Below, piece by piece: positions 458 to 42,100 of a stretch of 64,000 bases of DNA. Position numbers and translations under genes: made by a program. The stretch's first letter is position 1. Each line of letters opens with the position of its first letter. Where the stretch lies: the NCBI GenBank assembly GCA_027627225.1, contig CM051030.1, forward strand, positions 7,882,001 through 7,946,000. The letters are read 5' to 3'. Under the pieces are notes generated by a model, which had not been told where the DNA came from, ran no database searches, and worked only from the letters and a program-made list of their open reading frames with translations. Origin of the DNA: Congeria kusceri. Its lineage: Eukaryota > Mollusca > Bivalvia > Myida > Dreissenidae.

Positions 458-848
458 GTATTTATACATATTTATAAAAGCATATTCAAAAACAAAATAA
501 ATAAGTTTTTCAATGAAAAAGCAGGCATTGTCCCTTTAAGATAGTCAATTGTTAGCACGAGGAAAGTCAATAGAGCGTTTCGCCTTAATAAACACGGGCG
601 ATATAATTCGACTGGAATAGAAATGTGTTTACAAATGTTTACGGATTTGTCTCGAGTTTCAACGCATAAATACATATCTGTATGTTTGGTATACCATGAT
701 GAGGTACATTCAAAATGACGTTGCAGGTCGGGATAACAGTCGTATATGTATATAATACAAATAATTTATATAACAATCGCCTATAAATGTGTATCAAATG
801 CATATAAATACTTGGAAGTTTTCTGCGTTGTGAATGTTCTTGTTTCAG
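458..848 (+). other. Predicted spliceosomal intron 1 of the YR element
   Basis: A 391-bp AT-rich intron with donor GTATTT and acceptor TTCTTGTTTCAG. It is phase 1 and joins two open frames without a shift. YR retrotransposons of the DIRS/Ngaro group are known to carry introns. This one is predicted from sequence only. Confidence 0.65.
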
Positions 849-1481
849 CAAAAAATTTATTAAAGCGAAGGCAGAAGCTGATTCAGTTGGCCGATTCTTC
901 GGAGCTTGGGTGGCGAGTAGTATCCGAGTACGAAACCAATCCCATAGCATCAGACAGCGAGGATGAAAAGCGGATACTCAAGGCTGAAGCCAGGGCATCT
1001 CGCAAAGCGAAGGTCGAAAAGGGGAAGAAGTCGACAAAGGGGCGCGTATGGCCGTATCCTCAGAGGAGGCCGAGGGCACCGCCAACAGCCGGTCAATCAA
1101 TGAGACAGCAACCGGGCATCACTCAGTTACAGCGTCCGGGTCTGTGTTTCATTTGTGGCGGGGCAGGCCACTGGAAAGCTGAATGTTCTCAGGGGAGGTC
1201 ATCAAATAACAAGATAAGTGTCAATACTAGATCGTTAAAAGAACATGTATTATTCACAAATTGTAATAGTGTAGACAATAATAGAAGTAAGGATAATCCC
1301 GAAAGTAGGCCTATTGTAAAACATACCGATAAAAATATCACAGATATAGATGTATCTAGAAAATCAGTAGTTGAGATAAATAGGACGCCGGTAGGGCGTT
1401 TGAAAGAGAATATTGCCAAATGGAGAGAAATTTCAAATGATTCATACATACTTGATGTAATAGAAAATGGTTACAAATTAC

Positions 1482-1521
<40 letters not shown>

Positions 1522-2150
1522 TCCAGCTTCAATTTGCCTGAAAAATAATAGATCGGCAAGGCAGAATGGAGATTTTGTTTATTCAGAGATAAGAAATTTG
1601 TTGAAAAATGGTGTTATTTCTGAGGTTGTAGAAAAGCCAATAGTAGTCAATCCATTGACAGTAGCAATTGGCAAGTCTGGGAAGCCTAGGATGGTTCTAG
1701 ATTGTAGACATATCAACCCGTGTTTGCATTTGTTCAAAATCAAGTTCGAAGATATCAATGTTGCAGAAGCAATGTTTGATTGTTCATCTTACATTTTTAC
1801 GTTTGATTTAAAAAGCGCTTATCATCATATAGATATTAACAATTCACACAAGCAATATTTGGGATTCTCCTGGACAGGATCAGATAACGTTATCCGATAT
1901 TACGTATACAATTCTTTGCCTTTTGGTGTATCCGTGGCCGGTCATATATTTTCCAAGCTATTACGCGTTGTGATTAAATTTTGGCGGTCTAAGGGATACA
2001 GAGTGATTATGTTTCTAGATGATGGTATCGGTGGAGACACTGATTTTCGTAAAGCTTGCGAAGCTATTGATTTCATTAAAACATGCTTGCAGGATTTAGG
2101 ATTTCTCACAGCAGACGAGAAATGCATTTGGTTTCCATCCAAAAAAGGGC
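849..2150 (+). CDS. YR element gag zinc knuckle and reverse transcriptase
   Basis: One open frame carries the end of gag and the reverse transcriptase. A CX2CX4HX4C zinc knuckle lies at about 1145-1186 after a basic Pro/Arg-rich stretch. The RT follows: an N-terminal VLDCRHIN block (about 1694), motif A FDLKSAYHHI at 1802-1831, motif B with LPFG near 1918, and the catalytic FLDD box at 2012-2023, in place of the usual YxDD. A run of 33 A (1486-1518) sits between gag and RT and is read as about 11 lysines. The frame is lost at AAAAAAGGG (2141-2149); just after it the +1 frame continues the family sequence (GSWLGHYFDF). The printed frame would otherwise stop at 2171-2173. RT copies the element RNA into DNA. 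Confidence 0.88.
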
Positions 2151-4039
2151 TCATGGTTAGGACATTATTTTGATTTTGAAGTAAATCGATTGCATATTAC
2201 AGAGCAAAGAATACGGAAAATAGAGTTATCAATCGATTCGCTTTTAGAGCAAATAGAAAAGGATAAATGCAACGTAATTGCAGTGAGATTTCTAGCATCA
2301 GTGGTGGGTCAAATAATCTCTTTGATGAGTGTTTTTGGAAAGAAGGTTTGTCTAAAGACCAGATATCTGCACACAAGCATTTCATCAAGAATAGGTTGGA
2401 ACGGTAGAGTGTTCATTTCGGCTAAAGCAATACAAGAACTCGAATTTTGGAAAGGTCACACTAGAAAACTAAATGAAACAGGCAGATCTTTGACACGAGA
2501 CAATGGTGCGCCGATAAATGTTTTCACGGACGCTAGTGGTGACGGATATGGCGGTTACATAAGCAATGATTTAGGCAAAACCGAGGTTATGTGCGGATCC
2601 GGTCGATCCATTGCGGAGCGGAATATTGATAGATTTGCTAATTATGACGTTTTTGATAAGACATGCGTCTTGTATAAAGGTGAAAGAGCGCACGCAGACA
2701 AAGTTTATAGCACATTGGAGCACTTAAATGGCTCAGAATTCGATAGCTTTGTAGATGGATGGCTCGGGGAAGATATTTATGCTGTTTTAATGTATCCAGA
2801 AATAGATGATAGAAAGTTAGATTATGCGTGGTTAAAAACAACTGAGTTGATTACAGAAACGAGCGCGTCTGATAAATACAGAATAATCAATAATGTTAAT
2901 ATGTTAACCCCGGAAGTGAGTTCGTGTAGATTACCACCAGAAGTGGGTTCAAGTAGTTTAACCCCGGAAGCGGGTTCAGATAGATTACCCCCGGAAGCGG
3001 GTTCAGATAGATTACCCCCGGAAGCGGGTTCAGATAGATTACCCCCGGAAGCGGGTTCAGATAGATTACCCCCGGAAGCGGGTTCAGATAGATTACCCCC
3101 GGAAGCGGGTTCAGGTAGATTACCCCCGGAAGCGGGTTCAGGTAGACTAACCACGGGAGTTGGTTTCAGTAGTATAATTCCTGAAATGAGTTCAATCGGA
3201 CTGACCCCGGTAGAGGGTTCGGTAGGATTTAACTTGGAAGTAGGTTCAAGCGAAATTCCGAAAATAGATTCACGTTCAGGCAAGCAAGAAGTTCCAGTGT
3301 ATGGGAGTAAATATGTTATCTCCGGTTGGAATGAATCCTTATATAGTTCAGAAATGACAGGCAGTTGGACAGACTTAGAAAAATCACGCAGTTCTACGTG
3401 GAGAGAACTTGAGGCACTTCATAGAGTTTTAAAGAGTTTTCCATGTAAATTTATAGGTAAATCTGTACAGTTTTGGACAGACAATAAAAATATTATTTTT
3501 ATCATAGAGTCTGGCAGTAACAATAATACTTTGCATGAGCTCAGTTTAAAAATTCACGACTTTTGTGAAACGAATAATATAACATTCTCTGTTGGTTGGA
3601 TTCCAAGGAGTCAAAATACTAGAGCAGATCATTTGAGCAGGTGTCATGATTGCGATGATTGGTCGGTAAGTGACCATATATTTCGTCGTCTGGACAAGGC
3701 ATGGGGTCCACATTCCGTTGACAGGTTTGCAACTAATTACAATAATAGATGTAAGAGATTCAATTCAAAGTGGTGGGTTCCAGGAACTGAAGGAATTGAT
3801 AGCATGAAACAATCCTGGTCAGGGGAGACTAATTGGATTGTTCCGCCTCCAAGATTAGTGTCCCTTTGTATAAATAAAATGATGAGAGAGATGTACTGGA
3901 ACGCTTATCGTTCCCCGCTGGCAATCAGCCCCTTTTTGGCCAATGCTTATCGACCGTGACGGTCAGTTCAAAAGATTTATTAAGAACCAGTTTAGTTTTA
4001 GAGTTTTAGACGGAATTATAGCCGGCAAAGGAAACAATG
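2151..4039 (+). CDS. YR element RNase H and C-terminal pol region
   Basis: Continues the polyprotein in a new frame after the 2141-2149 break. RNase H residues are visible as VFTDASGDGYGG (about 2520), STWRELEAL (about 3391), FWTDNK (about 3474) and TRADHLSR (about 3621), giving the D-E-D-D set. Between the first Asp and the Glu there are roughly 280 residues, far more than in a normal RNase H; this insert contains the 9-residue repeat at 2902-3257. After RNase H comes the DIRS-group tail (HSVDRFA, RFNSKWW, W...PPPRL). The frame slips again at CCCCTTTTT (3929-3937). The family sequence (PFWPML) then runs in another frame to a splice donor at 4040, so the stop at 3957-3959 is probably an artefact of the slip. 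Confidence 0.82.
2902..3257 (+). repeat. 27-bp in-frame minisatellite inside RNase H
   Basis: Tandem 27-bp units encode the 9-residue repeat LPPEAGSDR. About six central units are nearly identical, with degenerate units on both sides (for example LTPEVGSS, LTPVEGSV). The frame stays open throughout, so the array lengthens the protein rather than breaking it. Confidence 0.9.
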
Positions 4040-4132
4040 GTATGTTCAGTAATAACAAAGCGTCGTTCGATATGTTAGCACTACTGTGCGATTTTAGGGA
4101 CGTGTAACATATTGATGTATTTTATTTCTCAG
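4040..4132 (+). other. Predicted spliceosomal intron 2 of the YR element
   Basis: A 93-bp intron with donor AATG|GTATGTTC and acceptor TTTATTTCTCAG. It is phase 1: the leftover G and the following GT make a Gly codon. The join links the pol tail (ending ...AGKGNN) to the open recombinase frame (LDLRKSLKRKF), which is otherwise without an ATG near its start. Confidence 0.7.
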
Positions 4133-5144
4133 GTCTTGACCTAAGAAAATCTCTAAAGAGAAAATTCAACGAAGCAGGCGTGGGCATTGACAACGAGGAT
4201 GCGATAGTAGGACGCATGGCAACGCACATTCTAGCATCACGAGCTGACAGTACGGTCACGAAGTATTACTATCAGGTTAAATCGTTTAAAGAATATTGTT
4301 CAGACAAACGGTTTCCTACATGTCCTGCTCATTCTATACATGTAGCAATGTATTTGTCACACTTAATTGACTTAAGAAAATCAACACCAGTGATTTTGTC
4401 TGCATATTATGCCGTCAAATGGTTACATGATATAAATGGCTGTTCAGATCCAACGGATAATTCAGTTGCAAAGAACATTTTAGAGTGTGCTAAAAGGTTG
4501 TGCTCAAAGCCTGTTGTTCGGAGAGACATTTTATCAAAAGAAATGATTGTATCTTTGTGCGACATGTATCAAGATTCCACAGACGTGATTGTTTTAAGAG
4601 ATTTATGTATGAATCTTTTGTCTTATGCCGGTTTTCTACGATACAGTGATGTTAGCGAATTGAGGTGTAATGACGTTTCATTTTTTCAAAACCATATAGT
4701 TTTGAATTTGAGAAAAAGCAAAACAGATGTATACAGAAAGGGTAGCGAGGTGTGTATTGCTAAAGGAACAACAAGTGCATGCCCTGTTAGTATGTTGCAA
4801 TGTTACATTAATTGTTCAGGCTCTGATATACATTCAGAAATGTTTTTGTTTAGACCAGCTTGCAGAACAAAATCAAATGTTTCCTCTTATCTAAAGACAA
4901 AAAGATAAGTTATACAAGGGCAAGAGAATGCATTGTTCAAAAGCTCAAAATTGTTGCTCCAGGGTTGCGTTTAGGCACTCATAGTTTGCGTGCAAGTGGT
5001 GCAACGGCAGCCGCAAACGTACAGGGTGTTTCTGATCGCTGTATAAAAAGGCATGGTAGATGGAAGTCAGATAGTTCGAAAGATTCATACATTGAAGATT
5101 CAATTGAAAAAAGGTTGTTTGTGTCACAACAATTATCATTGTAA
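4133..5144 (+). CDS. YR element tyrosine recombinase (broken by one frameshift)
   Basis: The recombinase that integrates the circular DNA form. It has an N-terminal core-binding-like part (SRADSTVTKYYYQVKSF) and then the catalytic domain. The first catalytic Arg is in GFLRYSDV (about 4630-4653), the His-x-x-Arg box is HSLR (about 4979), a second His is in KRHGRW (about 5046-5063), and the nucleophile Tyr is in SYIED (about 5086). The frame changes once at the A-rich stretch about 4883-4905: the first frame stops at 4906-4908, and the second carries HSLR through Tyr and ends at 5142-5144. All catalytic residues are thus present but split over two frames. The exon was started at the acceptor at 4131-4132 because the frame is open from there. 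Confidence 0.88.
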
Positions 5145-11894: not shown

Positions 11895-14467
11895 TATGGA
11901 GGCTATCTTGTGCCAAAAATGTAATGATGTACAAACATAGAAATATAAGCGGAATTTTCAGATGTATAAAATCCATTCTCTAAAATAAGAAAGTAAATCA
12001 TCTAAATTCTATTTTCAAACAAGAAAAGTACATTATTGTGAAAACAAATCGAATTCTTGATTATCAACTAGATATCTACATAAAAATTAATAAGACAGCA
12101 GTCCTTTACATTTGGAAACATTAAAATCAGTATACAGTTCTTTATTTTGACCACTCGCATTATTACCCTGCACTTCTATTTCTTCTCAACGTACTTATGA
12201 AAATGTAAAATAACGATTAAGTTTTGGCATCTGACCAACTTACTTTCACACTTCACCGATTGCGATTCGGTAATGACAAATCGCGATTCGGAAATGACAA
12301 ATCGCAAGTTGCAATTTCACTGACTTCCATATAAGGAAATGCTTACGGAGTTTTCCGAAGTATTCTCCCCGCCCCCAATTTTCTCCGGTGTTGTTCGGGA
12401 TTCACCGTTTGCAAATTAATGTAATCGATGAAGTTTGGCCATGAAATGGTTTACCAGTACAATCTAGAGCTCCGTCTACAAATCGCGCAAGTTAATTTTC
12501 AAAGTACTTGCCTGACAGGACAAGTTGGTAGTCAAGCTAATGCACAGCTCTGAAACACTGGCTTAGAGTAATTAATCTAATGAATGAGTCACTAAACACA
12601 TATTTAGAGCTACTGTTAATGTACATTGTATATGTGCTTAACTCAATTTCTGTGTAGGGCCCAACATGTGCTAGAAGCAAATCTGTTACTTGATTTTGGT
12701 AAATATCACAGTGCCAATAACTCCTCTCGTCGCTTTTGATCCAATGCATGAACTTTAACAAAAAAGTTCCACAGAAATAAGTATTTGTCTCAACGACTGT
12801 TTCTATTTTTTTCATGAAATTGGAAATATATTTTAAATTAAGAAAAAAAGTATCCTAAAGTGCCCTATTTTAAAGCCTTTAAGAACATAAATATGATGTT
12901 TCTCTAATGCAATTGTATTTTGAAAAATAATACAAAGGTATCACTCAGTAATTTCTTCTTGTTAAAATAAAAACAATAAATTGGCATTCTCTATCAAACA
13001 AAGATTTCAACTGGTCAAATTATATTGACAAACGATTCAAGACCCTCCACATTTTCTGAGAGGGACTTAAAATAAAGCCTTTGGTTGCATGCCTTATATA
13101 ACCCAAAAGAACAAGGCTGTACAGAAATCAGTTAATATTTACATAGAAATAATGAAATTCAGAACATGTTATTATATTAAGTTCATTATAATAACAATTA
13201 AATGTCATTTTTAAGTACCTTGCATAATTATTGCACATGTACAAGTGTATGTTTTTTTGTTTTTTTTTCAGGACATACTCAGTTGTGAATCAAAACATTA
13301 CCATATACTAGTAACTAGCACAAAGATATGAGTAGGCCTACTGCTTTTTGTGAGTGAACATAATGACAATGGAAATGGTCGCTTTTATAATTTTTACACA
13401 TGTCTTTTCTTAAAGCTTAATATAATTAATACATTTGCCATGAACATACATTACCAATTACTTTTGATATAAAATATACACACAAGAATTTTTTTAACTG
13501 ATAAACTAAAATATGTCACAATTAGGTTATGTGACAGATTAAAGTACTGTAGTTAATGTCTTCTGTATGACAGAAACTCTCAGAACAGCTTTTGCTCACA
13601 CTCACAGCCGACACAGGCATTTGTGGAATCAAATATCAGCTTTTTTAACAATTGTCAATATGTATACGCCGTGGTAGCTGAAATAATTCGCGTTCAGAAT
13701 AAATCTGAACAGCAAAAACCATCAAAAGACTATGGCGGCAATATATATTGACCAACGCCGTGGTTTCTGCTGAAATATATCTTACATTACCGAGACAGAT
13801 AGATGGCTTAATAAATTCCATAGATAATACGAACATATATTTCTATCCGGTGTCCGGATTTACATACTGTCCGGATGTATTTACGTAACTTTGCTAGAAT
13901 GTATATTTGACATAAACGGTCTACAGTACTGTAGACCTTCCACTAAATCCGGTAATTTCCGATGATGCACGAGCGTTCGATAGGCTCCTCCCACATTCTT
14001 ATTGACATTTTCCATATATGGGCATGTGCAAAATTCGATACTTGTTTCTTTCGAGTTTTGTAAACCGAGAAATGTAAACGGCGACTTTCCATTTGCGTTG
14101 TTCCACTGTCGCTTTGTCAGATGAACTTTTTCGCATATTCAAAACATTGAATTAAGTAAAGCTAGATCTTTTTTATGAGAAATTATTCAATAGAATGGAT
14201 ATTATATAGGATTTTGGTTTTCTACCGATTCCTTTTCCATAACATAACATTAGAAATTGCACAAAACCATGTTGCGATTAACTAACAGCGAAAGAGCGGA
14301 ATTATATTTCTTAAAATAAAATCGTATTTCTACAATTGCACGTGTAATCTTGAAAACTGCAAAATGTTAGTTAATTTTTAACCGCTTTACATTTGTAATT
14401 TGTCGATTTGTACAAAAATTTTCTACAAAAAACATTTGTACATTTTTGGCACAAGATAGCCTCCATA
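11895..14467. mobile_element. 2.57-kb non-autonomous DNA element with 29-bp TIRs
   Basis: Begins TATGGAGGCTATCTTGTGCC and ends with the exact reverse complement; the perfect terminal inverted repeats are 29 bp (11895-11923 and 14439-14467). Both flanks are GATATT (11889-11894 and 14468-14473), which fits a 6-bp target duplication. Removing the element and one GATATT restores a normal minisatellite unit. If the TIR is taken to start two bases inside, a TA duplication is also possible. No transposase frame is seen, so it would depend on one supplied elsewhere. A perfect 20-bp palindrome lies at 13918-13937. The superfamily is not certain. Confidence 0.78.
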
Positions 14468-15860
14468 GATATTATACAAATCATACAATTGACAGATATT
14501 CTCATAAAACTGACAGATATTCTACAAATCATACAATTGACAGATATTATCATAGAATTGGCATATATTCTACAAATCGTTCAATTGGCATAGATTCTAC
14601 CAATCATACAATTGACAGCTATTCTCATACAACTGACAGATATTCTACAAATCATATAACTGGCAGATATTCTACAAATCATACAATTAACAGATATTCT
14701 CATACAACAGACACGTATTCTACAAATCATACAATTGACATATATTCTACAAATCGTACAATTGACTGATATTCTCATATAACTGACAGATATTCTACAA
14801 TTCATATAATTGGCAGATATTTTACCAATCATACAATTGGCATAGATTCTATCAATCATACAACTGACAGATATTCTACAAATCATACGATTGGCATAGA
14901 TTCTACCAATCATACAATTGACATATATTCTCATACAACTGACAGATATTCTACAAATCATACAATTGACAGATATTATCATAGAATTAGCATATATTCT
15001 ACAAATCGTTCAATTGGCATAGATTCTACCAATCATACAATTGACAGATATTCTCGTACAACTCACAGATATTCTACAAATCATATAACTGGCAGATATT
15101 CTACTAATCGTACAATTGGCGGATATTCTACAGATCATATAATTTGCAGATATTATATAAATAATACAACTGGCAGACATTCTACAAATCATACAACTGG
15201 CAGATATTCTACTAATCGTACAATTGGCGGATATTCTACAGATCATATAATTTGCAGATATTATATAAATAATACAACTGGCAGACATTCTACTAATCGT
15301 ACAATTGGCGGATATTATCATAGAATTGGCATATATTCTACAAATCGTTCAATTGGCATAGATTCTACCAATCATACAATTGACAGATATTCTCGTACAA
15401 CTCACAGATATTCTACAAATCATACAACTGGCAGATATTCTACAAATCATACAATTGGCAGATATTCTACTAATCGTACAATTGGCGGATATTCTACAGA
15501 TGATACAATTGGCAGATATTCTACAAATCATACAACTGACAGATATTAACAAATCATACCACTGACAGATATACTGCAAATCATACAACTGACAGATGTT
15601 CTATAAATCATACAAATGATAGATATTATACAAATCATACCCTTGGCAGATATTCTACATATCGTACAGTTGGCAGATATTCTACAAATCATACAATTGG
15701 CTAATATTCTACAAATCATACAATTGGCTAATATTCTACAAATCATACAATTGGCGTATAGTCTACAATTCATACAACTGACAGATATTCCACAAATCAT
15801 TCAATTGGGCAAATATTCTGCAAATTATACAATTGACAGATATTCCACAAACCATTCATA
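14468..15860 (+). repeat. 27-bp minisatellite, right part (about 50 units)
   Basis: Tandem units around ACAATTGRCAGATATTCTAC, partly grouped in larger blocks. One block including a CATAGATTCTACCAATC variant recurs near 14590, 15020 and 15355. The period is a multiple of three, so open frames appear on both strands; they are not genes. The array ends about 30 bp before the CYYR1-like exon. Confidence 0.93.
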
Positions 15861-16938: not shown

Positions 16939-17246
16939 ACCAGACCCCGTACCAACAGCCCTACCCCTCGGGCCCGCAGCTCAACGGACCCCAACCCTCA
17001 GAGCAACAGCCCTACTACTCGGGCCCGCAGCTCAACGGACCTCAACCCTCAGAGCAACAGCCCTACCACTCGGGCCCGCAGCTCAACGGACCCCAACCCT
17101 CAGAGCAACAGCCCCAACCCCTCGGGCCCGCAGCTCAACGGACCCCAACCCACAGAGCTGCAGGGGGCTTCTCAACAACCCGTCCCGTCGCCGTACTCAG
17201 CTACGGACTAGACACCCAGAATCCAAGCTACCCTTCCCAATTCTAA
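16939..17246 (+). CDS. CYYR1-like membrane protein, repeated proline-rich tail exon
   Basis: After the acceptor at 16937-16938 (GTAAGCAG|AC) the phase-1 join to 16178 makes a His codon and opens the tail QTPYQQPYPSGPQ. About three and a half 54-bp units follow, encoding an 18-residue repeat around SGPQLNGPQPSEQQPYY. A Pro/Tyr/Gln-rich cytoplasmic tail is typical of CYYR1 relatives. In the last unit an extra C in CAGCCCCAACCCC shifts the frame. The shifted continuation ends in SYPSQF and a TAA at 17244-17246. The unshifted reading would end in PYSATD and a TAG at 17209-17211. Both endings look plausible. A possible AATAAA lies at 17847, rather far away. Confidence 0.65.
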
Positions 17247-17963
17247 CAAGATGACGCTCTAAACAATTCGTAAATAGAAAACCTTCTTTTGTATGAAATT
17301 TAGAGCAATTAATCCATGGGTATGTCGGTTGTTTATATAGTTCTAAACAGTAAAAATATGTTGCACGTGTATATTGATCTGTATGAAGTTATTTACACTA
17401 TTATGTCTTAAATATTGTCGAAGAATGAAACTAAACTATGATGTCACACTGTAGTTGGGTAATATAATTGACATACTTATGTGGGATGTGAACTTATCGA
17501 CGGATAAGTGTGACGTCAACCAAAAATCGTCACATTGAAACTTTACCTAAACATTGGATCTGATCGTTTTCTAAAAAGTGAACTAAGGGCGTTATATTGG
17601 AATTTGTCATTTATTCTAACATGAATTGTTTATTAACTAAAATATTGGAACGTATCGTTTACTTAACCCATTGTTTACTGAAAAGTTAACTGAGGACATA
17701 CATTGGAATGTATCGTTAACCAACACGTAATTAGAACTGTCAGATCGTTTACTAAAAGTAATATAAGGGCGTCACATTGGAGCGTATCGTTTAAAACATA
17801 TGATCTAATCATTTAATATAAACAGCTTAGTACTTAGAAGTACTAAAATAAACTATGGACGTCGTATTGGAATTATCTTTTATTAAAATTACTTTATTAC
17901 TTAAAATAACAACACGTGTGTTGTTTGCTAAACGCACTTCAATTTATTAACTCCCGAACACAG
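17247..17963. other. 3' flank with degenerate longer-period repeats
   Basis: No gene. The phrase 'gggcgt...attggaa.gtatcgttta' recurs loosely about every 80-100 bp from roughly 17520 to 17890. These units look like the ancestor of the 26-bp array that follows. Confidence 0.55.
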
Positions 17964-18762
17964 TGGAATATATAAATTCCAAAACATATTGGAACGTATC
18001 AATTCCAAAACACATTGGAACATATCAATTCCAAAACACATTGGAACATATCAATTCCAAAACACATTACAACATATCCATTCCAAAACACATTGCAACA
18101 TATCAATTCCAAAACACAATGGAACATATCAATTCCAAAACACATTGGAACTTATCAATTCCAAAACACATTGGAACTTATCAATTCCAAAACACATTAA
18201 TTGGAACTTATCAATTCCAAAACCCAATGGAACTTATCAATTGCAAAACACATTGGAGCTTATCAATTCTAAAACTCATTGGAACATATCAATTCCAAAA
18301 CTCATTGGAACATATCAATTCCAAAACACGTTGGAACTTATCAATTCCAAAACACATTGGAACGTATCAATTCCAAAACACATTGGAACGTATCAATTCC
18401 AAAACACATTGGAACGTATAAATTCCAAAACACATTGGAACTTATCAATTCCAAAACACATTGGAACGTATAAATTCCAAAACACATTGGAACGTATCAA
18501 TTCCAACACACATTGGAACATATCAATTCCAAAACACATTGGAACATATCAATTTCAAAACACATTACAACATATCCATTCCAAAACACATTACAACATA
18601 TCAATTCCAAAACACAATGGAACATATTGGAGCGTATAAATTCCAAAACACATTGGAACGTATCAATTCCAACACACATTGGAACGTATCAATTACAAAA
18701 CACATTGGAACTTATCAAATCCAAAACACATTGGAACTTATCAATTCCAAAAGACATTGGAA
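17964..18762 (+). repeat. 26-bp minisatellite (about 30 units)
   Basis: Head-to-tail units AATTCCAAAACACATTGGAA + CRTATC with few changes. The sharp block is flanked on both sides by the degenerate longer repeat that contains the same phrase. Confidence 0.95.
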
Positions 18763-19596
18763 CACCGTCTTTCACCAAAAGTATACTTAAGACGTCCCAT
18801 TGAAACATATCGTCGATTTAAAGCAGCACTCCAGAAATATATTAATCAAATATAACTTTGCATAAATCGTTTCTTATGGAAATCTTACCGATTTTTACAA
18901 AAACGCATTGAAATCGGTAAAATAATAACGTGTTTGGTAACTTTATAAATTATCTGTATGCGATACCTGGTGATGTCCCTGGAGTAAATCAGCGTGTACA
19001 TTAGTGTATATTCCGTTCGTACCAAGCGTTTTCGAACATAGGCATTATAAAATGCCTTTCGTAAATAAGAAACTGTTTTCAGTTGAATATACGTCATCAA
19101 CGTTCATTAGACATAATGCCAATTTAAGATGTATCTAATTACATTCTATGGACTGCGGCTTTAAACTAAATGTTCACTAAGATATCACCTCAAACACGAA
19201 AACACTGTTTTGTTTGTTTAAATAACTTAACATTAAAATTATGCGAAAATATTGAAAAACATTGATTTCAATCTTTGTACAATTGAATCCTGTTTGCTAA
19301 TGTTATATACAAATACGAATCGTTTAGGTTTACACAAAAATCATAATAGTTTAAACGTGTGTGTGATTGACTGGTAGTGACACTATGTGTATACATGTAT
19401 ATTTATGTCATTCATATGTATATGCGGTCTTGTTGTTTATTGTAAAATTATACTTGAAGAAAAGTTACCTTTCTTGGCGGAGGCCGGTCTGCGCTCTAAT
19501 GTGGTTTTCCGTTTAGGGGGAAAGAACTGTTCGGGAAAGTTGCACACGTCTCGGATAATGTGATCAACCAGCAAGCACACGTGTCGGATGGTATAA
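18763..19596. other. AT-rich intergenic DNA, no gene seen
   Basis: No supported gene. A 58-bp stretch at 19469-19526 has splice-like borders on the minus strand but no partner exon; see the rejected list. Confidence 0.45.
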
Positions 19597-27290: not shown

Positions 27291-28317
27291 GAAATGCGAT
27301 CTACCCCTAGTCATTACACACCTACCTTTGAACGATCGTGAAATGCGATCTACCCCTAGTCATTACACACCTACCTATGAAATGCGATCAACCCCTAGTC
27401 ATTACACACCTACCTATGAAATGCGATCTACCCCTAGTCATTACACACCTACCTATGAAATGCGATCTACCTCTAGTCATTACACACCTACCTATGAAAT
27501 GCGATCTACCCCTAGTCATTACACACCTACCTATGAAATGCGATCTACCCCTAGTCATTACACACCTACCTATGAAATGCGATCAACCCCTAGTCATTAC
27601 ACACCTACCTATGAAATGCGATCTACCTCTAGTCATTACACACCTACCTATGAAATGCGATCTACCCCTAGTCATTACACACCTACCTATGAAATGCGAT
27701 CTACCCCTAGTCATTACACACCTACCTATGAAATGCGATCTACCCCTAGTCATTACACACCTACCTATGAAATGCGATCTACCCCTAGTCATTACACACC
27801 TACCTATGAAATGCGATCTACCCCTAGTTATTACACACCTACCTATGAAATGCGATCTACCCCTAGTCATTACACACCTACCTATGAAATGCGATCTACC
27901 CCTAGTCATTACACACCTACTTATGAAATGCGATCTACCCCTAGTCATTACACACCTACCTATGAAATGCGATCTACCCCTAGTCATTACACGCCAACCT
28001 ATGAAATGCGATCTACACCTAGTCATTACACACCTACCTATGAAATGCGATCTACCCCTAGTCATTACACGCCAACCTATGAAATGCGATCTACACCTAG
28101 TCATTACACACCTACCTATGAAATGCGATCTACCCCTAGTCATTACACACCTACCTATGAAATGCGATCTACCCCTAGTCATTACACACCTACCTATGAA
28201 ATGCGATCTACCCCTAGTCATTACACACCTACCTATGAAATGCGATCTACCCCTAGTCATTACACGCCAACCTATGAAATGCGATCTACACCTAGTCATT
28301 ACACACCTACCTATGAC
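27291..28317 (+). repeat. 39-bp minisatellite (about 26 units)
   Basis: Very homogeneous units GAAATGCGATCTACCCCTAG + TCATTACACACCTACCTAT. The period is 13 codons, so two plus frames and one minus frame stay open for 250-350 codons. The unit resembles a piece of the interspersed repeat that begins right after it (GATC...TAGTCAT...CCTACCTACCAAGTTT). Confidence 0.96.
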
Positions 28318-30560: not shown

Positions 30561-32472
30561 TTTGAAGGTTGGGGGGGGGGGATAATGATGTTGAAGACTG
30601 CTGATATTTCGTGTCTAAAACTGTAAAAGGCTACTTGGATATATATGATTTAAGTAAATCTTAAAAATCAGCTTTACTTTGCTGGAATACACAAGATCTC
30701 AATAAATTATTTTTTCTAATATGAACAATTTACAACAAAAAATTAGGACAAAATAATCTAGAGTTACTTAGTGTTAAATTTATCATCATATACGATGTAA
30801 TTATTTCAATACATGTCTTATGTAAAACAATTAAATCAACAACTGACCTTAATCACATGTAATATGGGGAATAAGGTTTGGAAAATATATTATGCACAAC
30901 AACATAGACTGTCTTACCAACAACACACAACAATAGCATGATACTGAATTAAAATACAACATAAATTATAGATATGTAATGTTAAATTAGGAACTTAAAA
31001 GAATGCAAATATGTTTCTGCCATTGGAACACGAAACAGTCTGGCCATTTGATAAGTATTTCTAAACTTAAATGCATTTTACGTGATCGCCCAAATTCCAT
31101 GAATGGCAACATATATTTGTTTTGCATGGCCCTTTACTGTATGATGTCAAATATCTAGTTCAACTGTGTCTTATGAAAGCTATACACACATACAACATAC
31201 GAATGATATGTGCTCCAAACTAAGTGTAGGTAAATATTAATGTTCATTTAGTACATGTATACCAATGTCATGACAAAAGCTCAATCAATGATGGAGTATT
31301 TCTGCTTAAAAGAAACATTGTTACACCTGATGTTTCTAAGTAGCGAAGTGATTGTCAGATCATAGACATCAGCATATCTTATCAAAACATGGCATGTGTG
31401 CCATGCGTACTGAAATGCTCAGCAAATCTGCACCAAATACGGCCCTAGCAACAAAAATACATGTACTAACAATGGCAAAATATACATTTGACAGATGGTT
31501 GGTTAGAAAACATAACCAACATATCGTTTTATTTGTTTTGACAATTGAAACACATTCCTGAATCAAAAGTTAGTAAAATAAATATGAAATTAAATTGTAA
31601 TATAGCACAATTGTAACACGATTTTGAACATACATTTCTCAATACAAATTGAATTATCAAATAAAAAATACAAACATGACTGTGGGTATAATTAAATGCA
31701 AACAAAATATTCCTGAAACTTGAAATTTAAAGAAAATCGAAAACAAATTGTAATCTCCATTCCAGCCATAGAAAACATATAAAATACACAAGAAGTTAAA
31801 GAACATGTATAATTCATGCATCCTGAAAACAAGCAAAAATACCGATACAATAATACATAACAATACAAAATATACAAGAATACTCATAACAATAACACAA
31901 TTATTTCAATAAATGTCCATTGAAAGGAGTCATTCAGTGTAATTGTTCAGTGGTGTATGACTAGCAAACAGTTCCCACCTTCATATCAGAACATAGTAGA
32001 ACAAATCTTCAGGAAAACGTAAATGGCAGTTAATTAAATGCGAGACAAACATACAAATACAAAATGCAAACTCAACAGTGACCACCATACATAGTGACAA
32101 AATGTCGATTCAAATATTCCTTGCACAACTGCAACCACATCATTATAATATACTAGATGTAGTATCAACCCTTCACAACTGCTACAAAACAATGCCTGCC
32201 ACTAGACGAGGTCAGTAGATAAAGAAACAATTCAATGATTAAACAATTAAGTAAAAGCAATATAAAACATTTTTCTAAGTGAAGTTGAACAACAGTAAAG
32301 TTTTATGAAACAATGGTCAACATAAGAAATGAAATGCCCTTGTGTCATACTATAAGTCTGTCAACATTACGGAATGTACAGCAAACATGGATACTTATAA
32401 CAACAACGGTTCAATTAATGTAGATCATTTTTAACACAACGTATAGTTTTCCGATTTTGAGGATTTTTTTGG
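30561..32472 (-). other. Probable 3' UTR and downstream flank of the choline transporter
   Basis: Nearly 2 kb of AT-rich single-copy-looking sequence directly downstream of the transporter stop codon on the minus strand. No other gene is seen. A minus-strand AATAAA (plus TTTATT) near 31530 could end a UTR of about 950 nt. This is inferred from position. Confidence 0.45.
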
Positions 32473-33174
32473 CTATAATTTTGTGCCCTGGTTTCCAGTT
32501 TCTGTTGGCACACAATCTGCAGATGGCCAGTGCTGGGTACCAATCTTCTCACAACCATGGTCACATGATGTATCATGTGACACACTGGAGAGATCAAAGG
32601 ATTTTGAGGAGAGGTCATATGACCATTTGGCGTGGTTACATGGCACTTTCCTGTCGGGACATCTACACAGCTGAGTGGCCGAGGAGGACGGTGGGACATC
32701 TGTCATCTCACTGGTCGACGTCCGGTTGTAAGAATATTTCATCCTTTCTAATATTCCAAATATATCACAATACTTTGGGAAGACTTCTTTCTTAAACAGA
32801 TAATTAGTGACTAAAGATACAACAATAATGATTAAAAACGAAACTATCATAGAAAATGTTCTAAATGGAAAGACTTGCCCTACACTGTTATCAAACCAGG
32901 GGTATTTAATGATCGGGTCAAAACTCAAATACGGCTCACCAGCACCGAGCCTCAAAATAGCACCAGCTATGAACCCAAGAAATGCACCGTAAGTGTTTGT
33001 GAATTTCAGAAACAGCGCGCAGGTAAGCTGAGGGAGAACAATAACGAAGACGATGTCAGCTGCCAGTATAAAGAGGCCATAGATGATGGGGACATAGATG
33101 GAGATCGCTGTTGCCATGGCACCGACGATGAGAATCACGAGGCGTTGGACCCACAGCAGCTCAGTGTCTGAGGC
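32473..33174 (-). CDS. SLC5A7: Choline transporter exon 9 (terminal)
   Basis: Begins after ACGTTTCAG with ASDTELLWVQR, phase 0. It encodes the last helices (AISIYVPIIYGLFILAADIV, VIVLPQLTCALFLKF, GAFLGFIAGAIL, FSMIVSFLIIIVVSLV), the GEPYLSFDP motif, then a cytoplasmic tail of about 110 residues with several Cys and His (SATQLCRCPDRKVPC). Stop TAG at 32475-32473. Confidence 0.95.
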   Translation of the reverse strand, partial: ASDTELLWVQRLVILIVGAMATAISIYVPIIYGLFILAADIVFVIVLPQLTCALFLKFTNTYGAFLGFIAGAILRLGAGEPYLSFDPIIKYPWFDNSVGQVFPFRTFSMIVSFLIIIVVSLVTNYLFKKEVFPKYCDIFGILERMKYSYNRTSTSEMTDVPPSSSATQLCRCPDRKVPCNHAKWSYDLSSKSFDLSSVSHDTSCDHGCEKIGTQHWPSADCVPTETGNQGTKL

Positions 33175-36100
33175 CTGAAACGTATAGAGAATACTGGTTA
33201 GTGCTGAACAAAGATTGATTTATCTATTGAGGTATAGAATACCTGAACTATGAGCAATGCCTTATTAAACGTGGACTACAAGCATTGGCTTATTAAACGT
33301 GGACTACAAGCATTGGCTTATTAAACATGGACTACAAGCATTGGCTTATTAAACGTGGACTACAAGCAATGCCTTATTAAACGTGGACTATGAGCATTGG
33401 CTTATTAAACGTGGACAACAAGCATTGGCTTATTAAACGTGGACTATGAGCATTGGCTTGTTAGATATGGACTATGAGCATTGGCTGATTAAATATGGAC
33501 TATGAGCATTGGCTTTTTAAATATGGACTATGAGCATTGGCTTATTAAATATGGACTACAAGCATTGGCTTATTAAATATGGACTATGAGCATTGGCTTA
33601 TTAAACGTGGACTATGAGCATTGGCTTATTAAACATGGACTACAAGCATTGGCTTATTAAACGTGGACTACAAGCAATGGCTTATTAAACGTGGACTACA
33701 AGCATTGGCTTATTAAACGTGGACTACAAGCATTGGCTTATTAAATGTGGGCTATGAGCATTGGCTTATTAAATATGGACTATGAGCATTGGCTTATTAA
33801 ATATGGACTATGAGCATTGGCTTATTAAATATGGACTACAAGCATTGGCTTATTAAATATGGACTATGAGCATTGGCTTATTAAATATGGACTACAAGCA
33901 TTGGCTTATTAAATATGGACTATGAGCATTGGCTTATTAAATATGGACTATGAGCATTGGCTTATTAAATATGGACTACAAGCATTGGCTTATTAAATAT
34001 GGACTATGAGCATTGGCTTATTAAATATGGACTATGAGCATTGGATTATTAAACATGGACTACAAGCATTGGCTTATTAAACGTGGACTACAAGCAATGG
34101 CTTATTAAACGTGGACTACAAGCATTGGCTTATTAAACGTGGACAACAAGCATTGGCTTATTAAATGTGGGCTATGAGCATTGGCTTATTAAATATGGAC
34201 TATGAGCATTGGCTTATTAAATATGGACTATGAGCATTGGCTTATTAAATATGGACTACAAGCATTGGCTTATTAAATATGGACTATGAGCATTGGCTTA
34301 TTAAATATGGACTATGAGCATTGGCTTATTAAATATGGACTTGTTCTTGTACTCATACCTTGTTATGGAGGATGTTCTAGTACACATATCTTGTTATGGA
34401 AGATGTTCTTGTATACATACCTTGTTATGGAGGATGTTCTTGTACTCATAGATTATTATGGAGGATGTTCTAGTACTCATAGATTGTTATGGAGGATGTT
34501 CTAGTACTCATAGATTATTATGGAGGATGTTCTTATACACATATCTTGTTATGGAGGATGTTCTAGTACTCATAGATTGTTATGGAGGATGTTCTTGTAC
34601 TCATAGATTGTTATGGAGCATGTTCTTGTACACGTACCTTGTTATAGAAGATGTTCATGTACACATATCTTGTTATGGAGGATGTTCTTGTTTACATACC
34701 TTGTTATGGAGGATGTTCTTGTACTCATAGATTGTTATGGAGGATGTTCTAGTACTCATAGATTGTTATGGAGGATGTTCTAGTACTCATAGATTGTTAT
34801 GGAGGATGTTCTTATACACATATCTTGTTATGGAGGATGTTCATGTACTCATAGATTGTTATGGAGGATGTTCTAGTACTCATAGATTGTTATGGAGGAT
34901 GTTCTTGTACTCATAGATTGTTATGGAGGATGTTCTTGTACACATACCTTGTTATGGAGGATGTTCTTGTACACATACCTTGTTATGGAGGATGTTCTAG
35001 CACTCATAGCTTGTTATGGAGGATGTTCTTGTACACATACCTTGTTCTTGTACACATACCTTGTTATGGAGGATGTTCTTGTACTCATATATTGTTATGG
35101 AGAATGTTCTAGTACTCATAGATTGTTATGGAGAATGTTCTAGTACTCATAGATTGTTATGGAGGATGTTCTAGTACTCATAGATTGTTATGGAGGATGT
35201 TCTAGTACTCATAGATTGTTATGGAGGATGTTCTAGTACTCATAGATTGTTATGGAGGATGTTCAAGTACTCATAGATTCTTATGGAGGATGTTCTTGAA
35301 TATGTATCTTGTTATGGAGGATGTTCTTGTACACATATCTTGTTATGGAGGATGTTCTTGTATATATACCTTGTTATGTAGGATGTACTTGTACACAAAC
35401 CTTGTTATGTAGGGTGTTCTTGTACACATACCTTGTTATGTAGGGTGTTCTTGTAGACGTACCTTGTCATGCAGGATGTTCTTGTAGACGTACCTTGTCA
35501 TGCAGGATGTTCTTGTACACGTAACTTGTTATGTAGGGTGTTCTTGTACACATACCTTGTTATGTAGGGTGTTCTTGTAGACGTACCTTGTTATGGAGGG
35601 TGTTCTTGTAGACGTACCTTGTTATGGAGGGTGTTCTTGTAGACGTACCTTGTTATGGAGGATGTTCTTGTACACGTAACTTGTTATGTAGGGTGTTCTT
35701 GTACACATACCTTGTTATGTAGGGTGTTCTTGTACACCTACTTTGTTATGTAGGGTGTTCTTGTAGACGTACCTTGTTATGTAGGGTGTTCTTGTAGACG
35801 TACCTTGTTATGTAGGGTGTTCTTGTACACATACCTTGTTATGTAGGGTGTTCTTGTACACGTACCTTGTTATGTAGGGTGTTCTTGTACACATACCTTG
35901 TTATGTAGGGTGTTCTTGTACACATACCTTGTTATGGAGGGTGTTCTTGTACACATACCTTGTTATGCAGGATGTTCTTGTACACGTACTTTGTTATGTA
36001 GGGTGTTCTTGTACACATACCTTGTTATGTAGGGTGTTCTTGTACACATACCTTGTTATGTAGGGTGTTCTTGTAGACGTACCTTGTTATGTAGGGTGTT

Positions 36101-39100
36101 CTTGTACACATACCTTGTTATGGAGGGTGTTCTTGTACACATACCTTGTTATGCAGGATGTTCTTGTACACGTACTTTGTTATGTAGGGTGTTCTTGTAC
36201 ACATACCTTGTTATGTAGGGTGTTCTTGTACACATACCTTGTTATGTAGGGTGTTCTTGTAGACGTACCTTGTTATGTAGGGTGTTCTTGTACACGTACC
36301 TTGTTATGTAGGGTGTTCTTGTACACATACCTTGTTATGGAGGGTGTTCTTGTACACATACCTTGTTATGTAGGGTGTTCTTGTACACATACCTTGTTAT
36401 GGAGGGTGTTCTTGTACACATACCCTGTCATGCAGGATGTTCTTGTAGACGTACCTTGTCATGCAGGATGTTCTTGTAGACGTACCTTGTTATGTAGGGT
36501 GTTCTTGTACACATACCTTGTTATGTAGGGTGTTCTTGTACACATACCTTGTCATGCAGGATGTTCTTGTAGACGTACCTTGTCATGCAGGATGTTCTTG
36601 TACACGTACCTTGTTATGCAGGATGTTCTTGTACACGTACCTTGTCATGCAGGATGTTCTTGTACACATACCTTGTTATGTAGGGTGTTCTTGTACACGT
36701 ACCTTGTTATGGAGGGTGTTCTTGTAGACGTACCTTGTTATGGAGGATGTTCTTGTACACATACCTTGTTATGGAGGGTGTTCTTGTACACATACCTTGT
36801 CATGCAGGATGTTCTTGCAGACGTACCTTGTCATGCAGGATGTTCTTGTAGACGTACCTTGTTATGTAGGGTGTTCTTGTACACATACCTTGTTATGTAG
36901 GGTGTTCTTGTACACATACCTTGTCATGCAGGATGTTCTTGTAGACGTACCTTGTCATGCAGGATGTTCTTGTACACGTACCTTGTTATGCAGGATGTTC
37001 TTGTACACGTACCTTGTCATGCAGGATGTTCTTGTACACATACCTTGTTATGTAGGGTGTTCTTGTACACGTACCTTGTTATGGAGGGTGTTCTTGTAGA
37101 CGTACCTTGTTATGGAGGATGTTCTTGTAGACGTACCTTGTCATGCAGGATGTTCTTGTACACGTAACTTGTTATGCAGGATGTTCTTGTACACATACCT
37201 TGTTATGTAGGGTGTTCTTGTACACATACTTTGTTATGTAGGGTGTTCTTGTACACATACCTTGTTATGGAGGGTGTTCTTGTACACGTACCTTGTTATG
37301 TAGGGTGTTCTTGTACACATACCTTGTTATGGAGGGTGTTCTTGTACACGTAACTTGTTATGCAGGATGTTCTTGTACACCTACCTTGTTATGTAGGGTT
37401 TTCTTGTACACATACTTTGTTATGTAGGGTGTTCTTGTACACATACCTTGTTATGGAGGATGTTCTTGTACACCTACCTTGTTATGTAGGGTGTTCTTGT
37501 ACACATACCTTGTTATGGAGGATGTTCTTGTACACATACCTTGTTATGTAGGGTGTTCTTGTACACATACTTTGTTATGTAGGGTGTTCTTGTACACCTA
37601 CCTTGTTATGCAGGATGTTCTTGTACACCTACCTTGTTATGGAGGGTGTTCTTGTACACATACTTTGTTATGTAGGGTGTTCTTGTACACATACCTTGTT
37701 ATGGAGGGTGTTCTTGTACACCTACTTTGTTATGGAGGGTGTTCTTGTACACATACCTTGTTATGGAGGATGTTCTTGTACACTTACCTTGTTATGTAGG
37801 GTGTTCTTGTACACCTACTTTGTTATGTAGGATGTTCTTGTACACCTACCTTGTTATGGAGGGTGTTCTTGTACACCTACTTTGTTATGGAGGGTGTTCT
37901 TGTACACATACCTTGTTATGGAGGATGTTCTTGTACACGTACCTTGTTATGTAGGGTGTTCTTGTACACATACCTTGTTATGTAGGATGTTCTTGTACAC
38001 CTACCTTGTTATGGAGGGTGTTCTTGTACACCTACTTTGTTATGGAGGGTGTTCTTGTACACATACCTTGTTATGGAGGATGTTCTTGTACACGTACCTT
38101 GTTATGTAGGGTGTTCTTGTGCACCTACCTTGTTATGGAGGATGTTCTTGTACACCTGCCTTGTTATGGAGGGTGTTCTTGTACACATACTTTGTTATGT
38201 AGGGTGTTCTTGTACACATACCTTGTTATGTAGGGTGTTCTTGTACACCTACTTTGTTATGGAGGGTGTTCTTGTACACATACCTTGTTATGGAGGATGT
38301 TCTTGTACACGTACCTTGTTATGGAGGATGCTCTTGTACACGTACCTTGTTATGTAGGGTGTTCTTGTACACGTACCTTGTTATGGAGGGTGTTCTTGTA
38401 CACATACCTTGTTATGTAGGGTGTTCTTGTACACGTACTTTGTTATGTAGGGTGTTCTTGTACACGTACCTTGTTATGTAGGGTGTTCTTGTACACGTAC
38501 CTTGTTATGGAGGATGTTCTTGTACACGTACCTTGTTATGGAGGGTGTTCTTGTACACATACCTTGTTATGGAGGGTGTTCTTGTACACGTACCTTGTTA
38601 TGGAGGGTGTTCTTGTACACATACCTTGTTATGTAGGGTGTTCTTGTACACGTACCTTGTTATGTAGGGTGTTCTTGTACACGTACCTTGTTATGCAGGA
38701 TGTTCTTGTACACATACCTTGTTATGCAGGGTGTTCTTGTACACATACCTTGTTATGCAGGATGTTCTTGTACACATACCTTGTTATGCAGGGTGTTCTT
38801 GTACACATACCTTGTTATGCAGGGTGTTCTTGTACACATACCTTGTTATGCAGGGTGTTCTTGTACACATACCTTGTCACGCAGGATGTTCTTGTATACA
38901 TTGAAGGTGAACATGGAGCTGGATCCCAGCACGGAGCTATCCATGGATGACATCACTGCCGCAGAGATAGAACCCAGACCTGCAGGGGTAATGAGGGCAT
39001 TTCAAAAATGGCTACCTATACATTCGAACACCGTTATTTCGAAGTCGTCGGGACTGGCAAGAACACTTCGAAATAACAATTGTTCGGATTAAACATTTTG

Positions 39101-42100
39101 TCAATTTTGTAGATCCCGTCACATTTTGTAGATCCCGTCACATTTTGCTTTTTCTTTACATACACAATTTTATTGGGGGAAAATATAATTCTAAATATCA
39201 TAATTAAAATACTGTTAAAATCAAAGTATTTCAAACGCATGTGACCTTGTATAAAGGTAAAAGTGCAGTGGTCAGCTAGCCGATTTGAAAGTCTTATATT
39301 GGCAGGGAACCAATATTAAAGTAGTTTTATTACCCAGAATGCCTTGCGTGAACTTACAAAGGTCACACGGCCTAATGAGCGATAATTGCACCAATTAGCA
39401 ATAACAGCCACTATTGTTGACATGCACATAACCAGAATCATTTAAACGGATGTCTGAAAACATTGTGACCTTATCATGAGCGCAAGTTTAAATTAACAAT
39501 TGGCAAAATATTGTGAAATTGCGTTTTGGGACCAAATTTTAGACTTCAAAAGAATGATACTTTGAAATAAAAGAGTTTGAAATAATATTTTAGTTAAATA
39601 AAAAACAAATACATTCAGGACCAGTAAAATACTTCAAAATAGCGCTGAATTCGAAATAACAGAGTTTGGAATGTTCTAATGTAACTTATTTTGATTTTAA
39701 ATAGTTGTGCTTAGAAACAAACAAACTGCTCATTCTTAAATGCCCTTCACATGAATTCTTATATCCGTCGAATAAATCAAACAAACTGCTCATTCTTAAA
39801 TGCCCTTCATATGAATTCTTATATCCGTTGAATAAATCAAACAAACATTATTCTAAAACGTCTTCTAGCAAATTTACTTCAAACTTAATCTATATGATCT
39901 TAAACTTGTTTTGACAAGAGTCTTGTTTAAATTAACAACAATAAATCATTGCTTATTCTAAAATATTATTTGTATTCAATTCTTCTAACCACAACATAAA
40001 TCAAACACAAATTATTCTAAAACATGACTAGTTATCTAAATAAAATTCTATCAGCAAAATCAAGCAACCAAAATTTTCCATGGGTTATTTATATACATTT
40101 AATATTCCAGCCTTATAAAAATCAGCATGAAGAATGTAAGCCAACCTAGTATGGAGACGGCAGGCGGTGTGAACTCGTGCAGCACATAGGGCAGGATGGT
40201 GCTGCCCTGACCGATGTCCAGCGGGGACACGCCCAGTCTCGTGGAGTTCCAGTCTGAAGTGACAGCCTTCATATGTAAGGAACTGAGTTGTCATACTGTC
40301 ACTAACCGCTATGCAACAAGTGTATTTACAGGGTATGGAAAGTCTAAACAACAACAACCTTAGCTAACATTTTTGTGTCCCAATATTTAAGTTAATTTTT
40401 TTTAATTCAGAGCGTCCCAATATTTTGAGTAATTATGGCATACAACTGCTGACAATGCGTGTCTGTAAGCATGAATCTGTTAAGAACTGTATCAAATATA
40501 AAATCACATAAAAATTATTGCTGATTTCAGCAAATGAGTTCACTAGTGTAAGAAATATTCAGAGATAGACTGATTGTTGATCATAAACAGACTAATCTAA
40601 CTGTTCAAAACAAAATGATTCACCCAGAATCATAATTTCGCATGAAATCTTGTAGTGATTTCCGCTCGTCTAACTTGAACAGTACATGCATGTGTTTAAC
40701 ATATAGAAACAAAGCCTGGCTAATCTGAGGTTTACACTACTGAAAAGTAATTTAATTATAAACATTCTTGATATACTGCTTATTCATGCATTTTTCTTCT
40801 TTATATAGTTTTTGAATAATCTTGGATGATGACCCTAATATTTATCGTTTTGTTTTTTTTCATAACTAGTGTTCTGTCATAAATAACTCGCAACTCGCTG
40901 ATAAATAAACTGCTTAAAAATGATAAACTAATCAAAGTATCGAGACAAGAAACTAAAAATAATTGCACAAATCTTAGGTTAATAGCTTCATGCATACCCA
41001 TAAATGTATAAATAAGGGGTATCGTGGGAAACCCGGGCTTAATGCATGTGCGTAAAGTGTTGTCCTGGATCAGCCTGTGCAGTTCACACAGGCTAATCCT
41101 GGAAGACACTTTCCACTTTTATGGTATTTTCTGTTTCAATTAAGTCTCTTCTAAACATAAATCCACTGCTAGCTGAAAGTGTCATCCTGGATTAGCCTGT
41201 GCAGTAGGCTGGACAACACTTTACATACATGCATTCAGCCAAATTTTCCCATGACACGCCTAAAATATATGAGATGTTGTTTTATTTTCTGTACAATATG
41301 GGAAAGTAAGACAACTTTGCGTTAAGCCATTCAGCAGTATTCTTTCTACAATGGAACAAAACAATGGCTAAATGTCTTCTTTATCTACCATAATTAAACA
41401 TTTAGTTTTTGCAGCTTCAAAATTACACCAACTTAACTTGCAGAACTTGCAAATGAAAATTGCATTTTACCATTAAAATATCTAAACCTATTCTCCTAAT
41501 GCCACCTGCAGATTTCCCAGCTGCCCCTATCAAGACGGAGGGCACCACAAGGACGAGGGCAGAACAGGCCCCTGCCACAGACAGGATCTGGGCCTGGCGA
41601 CCACTGCGCACAGACAACACACGCTGGAAATATGCCTGCCATGGTATCGTCCCAAATGTCTGAAAAACAAGAGCCGTCTCAAGACAGCACGCTAGACTAT
41701 TCATACCACTATGTCAGAGGTATGGGCCTTGGTCAGTGACCTCACATACTGACCCCAAAGACATGTGTGCAGTTTCAATTCAATATCTGTAGTATTTACA
41801 GAGACATTAACTTGTTGCACGCAAACATTAACCAGAGCATTACCACGACGAAGACAATCAGGTGAGTAGAATAGCTTGGACTACTTGGTGAATAGTCGAG
41901 CTAAACAAGAGCACCACCTATAGGTGCTGGACGCTCGACTTTCTCGTATTTGATAGTATTATGGCCTTTTGTGATGAAGTGTGTTGAATTTCCAGTCAAT
42001 ACCTGTAATAGATATTGTGAAATTTGACCTAAAGCGAAAAGTTTTTAAAAAGGCAATTACTCAAACAAAATCCTTGATAGAGTTACCAACTCTTGTCTAC

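Follow-up and report, generated by a model that had tools for sequence, protein, structure and literature searches.

A minisatellite copied from the exon 8/intron 8 junction occupies most of an intron in a predicted bivalve choline transporter gene

How is one 5′ splice site used when the intron behind it begins with about a hundred near-identical ones? Selection between equivalent 5′ splice sites is an old problem, and it is raised by a 64,000-nucleotide stretch of the genome of the bivalve Congeria kusceri (contig CM051030.1, positions 7,882,001 to 7,946,000 of the forward strand). This whole stretch is called the window, and positions are counted from its first letter. On its minus strand the window carries a gene identified by homology as a choline transporter, and intron 8 of this gene opens with a 31-bp minisatellite whose units copy the exon 8/intron 8 junction, donor included. 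An earlier note on this DNA had described a donor array of about 146 units at this junction. The alignment reported here recovers exactly 146 further units after the one that contains the end of exon 8.

The host gene runs from 54034 to 32473 and is complete, with nine coding exons that join to encode a 593-residue protein with no internal stop. The product of exon 8 and the start of exon 9 (186 residues given) matches the solved human CHT1 entries with an E of 4.7e-50. The best relative of the full protein is the choline transporter (CHT-like) of Dreissena polymorpha, with 88% identity over the full length, and the next named matches, from Ruditapes, Mercenaria and Mya, stand at about 70%. 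These relatives would by themselves place the window in a dreissenid mussel other than D. polymorpha, probably, the family being one that includes Dreissena, Mytilopsis and Congeria. A Pfam search with exon 9 alone found nothing at E 0.001. Judged from the protein matches, the host gene is a high-affinity choline transporter (SLC5A7/CHT) with an intact reading frame; the earlier note had already called it a choline transporter. That note also placed the exon 8 splice at 38873, and the in-frame join of exons 8 and 9, in phase 0, reproduces the conserved protein context NVYKNILRDK/ASDTELLW. The D. polymorpha protein has no insertion across the residues that correspond to this join. Position 38979, where the earlier note ended its feature, is the first base of exon 8. 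The layout of the locus is as follows.

38873..38979, minus strand: exon 8, 107 nt, from the exon model, homology and unit alignment
38867..38875, minus strand: the authentic intron 8 donor, AAG/GTATGT
34342..38872, minus strand: the 31-bp donor-bearing array as far as it lies in the intron, made up of 146 further units with about 10 nt of a remnant left at the far end
33244..34341, minus strand: a second array, of 28-bp units, directly after the 31-bp array
33175..33243, minus strand: the only part of intron 8 that is not repeat, about 70 nt, with CACTAACC as a branch-like site and the acceptor TTTCAG
32473..33174, minus strand: exon 9, the last coding exon, 702 nt including the stop, from the exon model and homology

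Intron 8 is 5,698 nt long (38872-33175), and the 31-bp and 28-bp arrays make 98.7% of it tandem repeat. Tandem Repeats Finder rows with periods of 31, 62 and 93 jointly span 34342-38901. Wraparound alignment resolved 148 rows, which begin with the exon unit (38896-38866), continue through the 146 further units and end in a partial row (34351) that is left out of every unit count; the copy number is that of a single assembly. Of the further units, 145 are full and one is shortened to 19 nt (35052-35034), and the intronic array measures 4,531 nt. With a 31-bp period and 147 head-to-tail rows including the exon unit, the array lies within the minisatellite range of about 10-100 bp per unit. The last 24 nt of exon 8 (38896-38873) form the exonic portion of unit 1. 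A 23-nt junction pattern searched at up to 3 mismatches gave 130 matches, all on the minus strand and inside 34342-38878, compared with 0 in 100 shuffles. No copy was found elsewhere in the window at this threshold, and the exact 23-mer had no match in viral_contigs. Rfam at gathering scores returned no match in 32000-40000. The 28-bp unit was matched 38 times at up to 3 mismatches (33244-34333). Kinship between the 28-bp and 31-bp units was considered and rejected, their similarity being not above that of 500 shuffles (P 0.43).

The 31-bp array divides into two blocks that differ in how well the donor is kept, and a recent duplication lies within it. The loss of GT from the distal block and the 28-bp array are both additions to what the earlier note had described.

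35394..38865, minus strand: proximal block, 112 units with the exon unit excluded, 107 of them with GT at the donor position
34352..35393, minus strand: distal block, 34 units (one truncated), 9 of them with GT
36820..37129, minus strand: a run of ten units that recurs without change at 36757-36448, which marks a recent duplication within the array

The claim that the array was built from an exon-intron junction stands: similarity to the exon is not limited to a few bases and extends about 29 nt back from the splice site. The direction of copying was read from the protein. Two residues encoded within the repeated stretch, Y353 and R358, are invariant in 15 aligned proteins; a further relative outside the alignment (P0002) carries Lys at the R358 position. 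The R358 codon is CGT in the exon unit, CAT in 144 of the 145 other full units and TAT in the remaining one. The invariance of Y353 and R358 among the aligned transporters argues that the array was copied from the exon and not the exon from the array. An ATGT motif is present on both sides of the junction, at exon position -29 and intron position +3, a spacing of exactly 31 bp. Because this microhomology spacing equals the array period, an origin by slippage is suggested. The minisatellite arose from the exon 8/intron 8 junction of the predicted choline transporter gene.

One of the last codons of exon 8 (38876-38878) encodes Asp here (RDK), where D. polymorpha has Asn (RNK). At the first base of this codon position the array has A in 133 of 146 units and G in 13. 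The array may preserve an older state of the exon at this codon, or exchange may have moved the variant.

Variation among the units was used to describe their turnover. The 146 units fall into 58 distinct types with a mean pairwise identity of 88%, and adjacent units are more alike than random pairs (2.6 versus 3.6 mismatches). The exon unit differs from the commonest type at 4 of 31 bases. A simple gradient of similarity to the exon was looked for and rejected; the two closest units, nos. 63 and 75 with 1 mismatch each, sit mid-array. The exact duplications comprise the 10-unit block listed above, at a distance of 12 units from its copy, and a 6-unit block that adjoins its copy. This pattern of unit sequences indicates that the array is turning over by local and block duplication.

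Donor strength was scored in every unit, as the earlier note had suggested, with a human weight matrix applied here to a bivalve. GT is retained in 116 of the 146 further units. It is missing from 25 of the 34 distal-block units, and AATCTATGA, seen in the distal block, replaces the donor in 17 units array-wide. By weight matrix, 59 of the 146 units match or exceed the score of the authentic donor. The earlier count of more than 100 good donors is borne out when a good donor is one that has GT (116) or reaches 6 bits (111); it is slightly high when a good donor must beat all seven other donors of the gene, which 99 units do, so the figure depends on the threshold. Sites that strong number only 8 in the 14,082 nt of introns 1-7, compared with the 99 in 4,531 nt of array. 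Modelled U1 pairing energy also has 59 units that equal or beat the authentic donor, and only 8 of the 146 beat all seven others by this measure. The authentic donor ranks best of the gene by weight matrix and fourth of eight by U1 duplex energy, where its -6.3 lies behind donors 4, 6 and 1 (-8.3, -7.3 and -6.9). The description of it as the strongest donor of the gene therefore holds for the weight matrix alone.

The five array units nearest to exon 8 carry a 9-mer identical to the authentic donor. Taken over all units, donors score lower the farther they lie from the exon (Spearman -0.43); within the proximal block the correlation is -0.10 (P 0.29). In one fold of the exon with the first kilobase of the array, 24 of 29 array donors were predicted to be more accessible than the authentic donor. 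In these models the first donor is set apart by position alone, neither by strength nor by predicted accessibility. Structured RNA in the array was a candidate that was dropped, the first 310 nt of array RNA being less structured than 60 shuffles (z +1.9).

Read-through past exon 8 adds the residues VCVQEHPA before a stop codon whose last base is intron nucleotide 27, and all 116 downstream GT donors yield this one premature stop. Full-length transporter can therefore come from the first donor only. A stop at least 50 nt before an exon junction is the usual rule for decay in mammals, and the stop lies at least 50 nt before the new junction for 114 of the 116 donors and less than 50 nt before it for 2. 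Since the full-length protein needs the first donor and D. polymorpha has no insertion, correct splicing must presumably be common. A mammalian precedent is the human coagulation factor VII gene (F7): the donor of its intron 7 is contained in the first repeat of a series of 37-bp units, and, in the available portion of the report, the most upstream 5′ splice site alone is normally used (PMC6627357). From protein conservation and this precedent we infer that use of the first donor is common in the bivalve gene.

The donor positions gave no clear sign of selection. Among the 112 proximal units, 6 of 9 donor positions are polymorphic compared with 8 of 22 other positions (Fisher P 0.23), and these units show no excess conservation of donor positions. 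Selection for donors was rejected as an explanation on this ground and on the loss of GT from most of the distal block. Because the units share ancestry and are not independent, the comparison argues only weakly for neutrality.

We regard as likely a junction minisatellite that was born by slippage, is tolerated through use of the first donor and is near-neutral; its slippage origin, its first-donor use and its near-neutrality are all things that we infer. Slippage or unequal exchange between the ATGT copies 31 bp apart in exon and intron would have duplicated the junction, and more slippage together with block duplication would have expanded it to about 146 units. Since copying took in the junction motif, a long series of near-identical 5′ splice sites would now stand at the start of the intron. 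Splicing is probably kept correct by two properties of the exon's own donor: it comes before all the others, and it closes a small exon of 107 nt. Downstream donors would be mostly ignored, as in human F7 intron 7, and their occasional use would lead to one and the same truncated reading frame. Most likely the array is neutral or mildly costly, a tolerated by-product.

Several points weigh against this explanation. Positions +5G and +6T are invariant across the 112 proximal units. No intrinsic mark was found on the first donor, given the 9-mer that it shares with the next five units and the predicted accessibility of 24 of the 29 array donors. The case for first-donor use appeals to protein conservation and to a mammalian precedent. 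Long conservation of the array in relatives, if it were found, would argue for function.

One alternative is that the array helps exon 8. U1 is known to protect transcripts from premature polyadenylation (telescripting), and downstream sites for the U1 small nuclear ribonucleoprotein (snRNP) could raise the local density of U1, strengthen the definition of exon 8 and shield the long intron. The density of strong donor-like sites in the array compared with introns 1-7 is consistent with this role, as is the open structure predicted for the first 310 nt. In human PAH, according to the accessible part of the report, U1 binding downstream of the natural 5′ splice site can enhance exon definition (PMC5933811). 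Intron 8 also lacks AATAAA and ATTAAA, which would suit a shielded intron; this absence is a trivial outcome of repeat composition. A helping role is improbable, however: donor positions are no more constrained than the rest of the unit, most distal units no longer have a donor, and exon 8 already ends in the gene's top-scoring donor on the weight matrix, although U1 energy puts it fourth of eight. The opposite role, in which downstream donors compete with the first as decoys and a length-dependent share of transcripts acquires the common premature stop, lowering output, is equally doubtful. It would draw on the nearest five units with the authentic 9-mer, on the 59 units that score as high or higher, on the one stop shared by all 116 GT units (114 of them within the mammalian 50-nt rule) and on the recent block duplications. 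Against it, F7 normally uses only its most upstream repeat donor in the text available (PMC6627357), and errors of splicing would carry a cost for a gene that is intact and conserved. The effects that the earlier note had suggested, namely titration of U1 snRNP, slower splicing, many 3′-extended forms of exon 8 and tuning by array length, are likewise not our preferred reading. Stated most strongly, the array would be a length-variable splicing rheostat, with U1 snRNP spread over a hundred near-identical donors and copy number setting the fraction of transcripts stopped or delayed, a proposal to which we give little credence. If it were true, transporter output in cholinergic neurons would vary between individuals with array length. 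A bolder extension is that exchange with the array can rewrite the coding sequence of exon 8, since the last eight codons of the exon are unit 1; at one codon the exon gives Asp, D. polymorpha has Asn, and most array units read AAC.

Recursive splicing at AAG/GT units is a less likely reading that we do not favour. In 112 full units AAG stands at the boundary. Base -3 is A in 112 of 112, whereas all 8 true acceptors of the gene have C or T there. The pyrimidine content of the units does overlap that of true acceptors, at 0.56-0.67 versus 0.67-0.89 for -12..-4 and at 0.47-0.60 versus 0.53-0.80 for -18..-4. Tandem arrays are also prone to assembly error, and the length could be wrong or the repeat expanded by misassembly. 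The exact 310-bp block repeat could be such an assembly duplication. An artefact is nevertheless very unlikely: the 146 units include 58 types, the distal block has diverged, and the boundaries with the exon, the 28-bp array and the acceptor are clean. Even with the copy number wrong, there would still be an array.

The window as a whole is rich in minisatellites. Downstream of the transporter gene, a 39-bp array of 25 copies (27339-28316, 96%) falls within long frames that stay open over 347, 352 and 261 aa, with both strands represented. Large minisatellites also occur at 14467-15855 (27-bp units) and 17957-18764 (26-bp units). A 51-bp (17-codon) repeat of 4 copies (16953-17158, 94%) has frames open on the plus strand, with no Pfam match in the frame tried. 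At 737-4908, successive plus-strand open reading frames have a reverse transcriptase match (E 2.1e-10) and a zinc knuckle, with RNase H, Dam and phage-integrase matches that are all sub-threshold. This is presumably a DIRS-type retroelement, and it contains in-frame 27-bp repeats (EAGSDRLPP) at 2904-3146. The D. polymorpha genome is given as 47.4% repetitive in the part of its report at hand (PMC9210306).

The intron 8 locus is a natural extreme, with about a hundred donor-like units at 31-nt spacing behind the authentic donor of an intact gene, and it indicates how the greater part of an intron can come from amplification at a splice junction. The earlier note knew of no described minisatellite with an exon-intron junction as its unit, a view that F7 does not bear out. 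The F7 repeat is a handful of 37-bp copies. Besides F7, no other donor-bearing repeat at an exon-intron boundary was recognised in the portions available of the open-licence literature, and the accessible parts of PMC3778950, PMC9210306 and PMC3152781 hold nothing on repeats at splice junctions. Other systems share single features with the locus. Tandem or pseudo 5′ splice sites also place competing donors beside a real one, often with a shifted frame and predicted decay, whereas they lie four nucleotides away in the text consulted (PMC2423196) and here about a hundred sites are spaced at 31 nt. In intron 5 of dog LHX3, as far as the available report describes it, tandem-repeat copy number affects splicing through the donor-to-branch distance; the repeat is 7 bp and GC-rich in a 75-bp intron, and its units are not donors (PMC3223203). 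Intron 1 of earthworm metallothionein genes is another invertebrate intron full of long minisatellite clusters without known function, whereas its units are longer (25-216 nt) and the accessible text describes none that carry donors (PMC12783039).

Introns can be gained by tandem genomic duplication. The resemblance to that process, in the part of PMC4974935 available, lies in duplicated gene sequence with a splice motif. Here, in contrast, the duplicated segment spans an existing donor within an existing intron, and no new intron results.

The closest likeness is to F7. In both genes the authentic donor lies inside the first repeat, which here is unit 1 (38896-38866) with the splice between 38873 and 38872 (the F7 anatomy as given in the available part of PMC6627357), and donor-like sequences recur in the downstream repeats, here with GT in 116 of 146. 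The bivalve array differs in that 146 further 31-bp copies, rather than a few of 37 bp, fill most of a 5.7-kb intron, and in that the gene is unrelated and belongs to a bivalve. With 4.5 kb of units where F7 has only a few copies, the locus lends itself to a test, in an invertebrate, of whether the upstream donor is chosen first. By its anatomy, the mussel array is probably an extreme and probably neutral case of the F7-type donor repeat.

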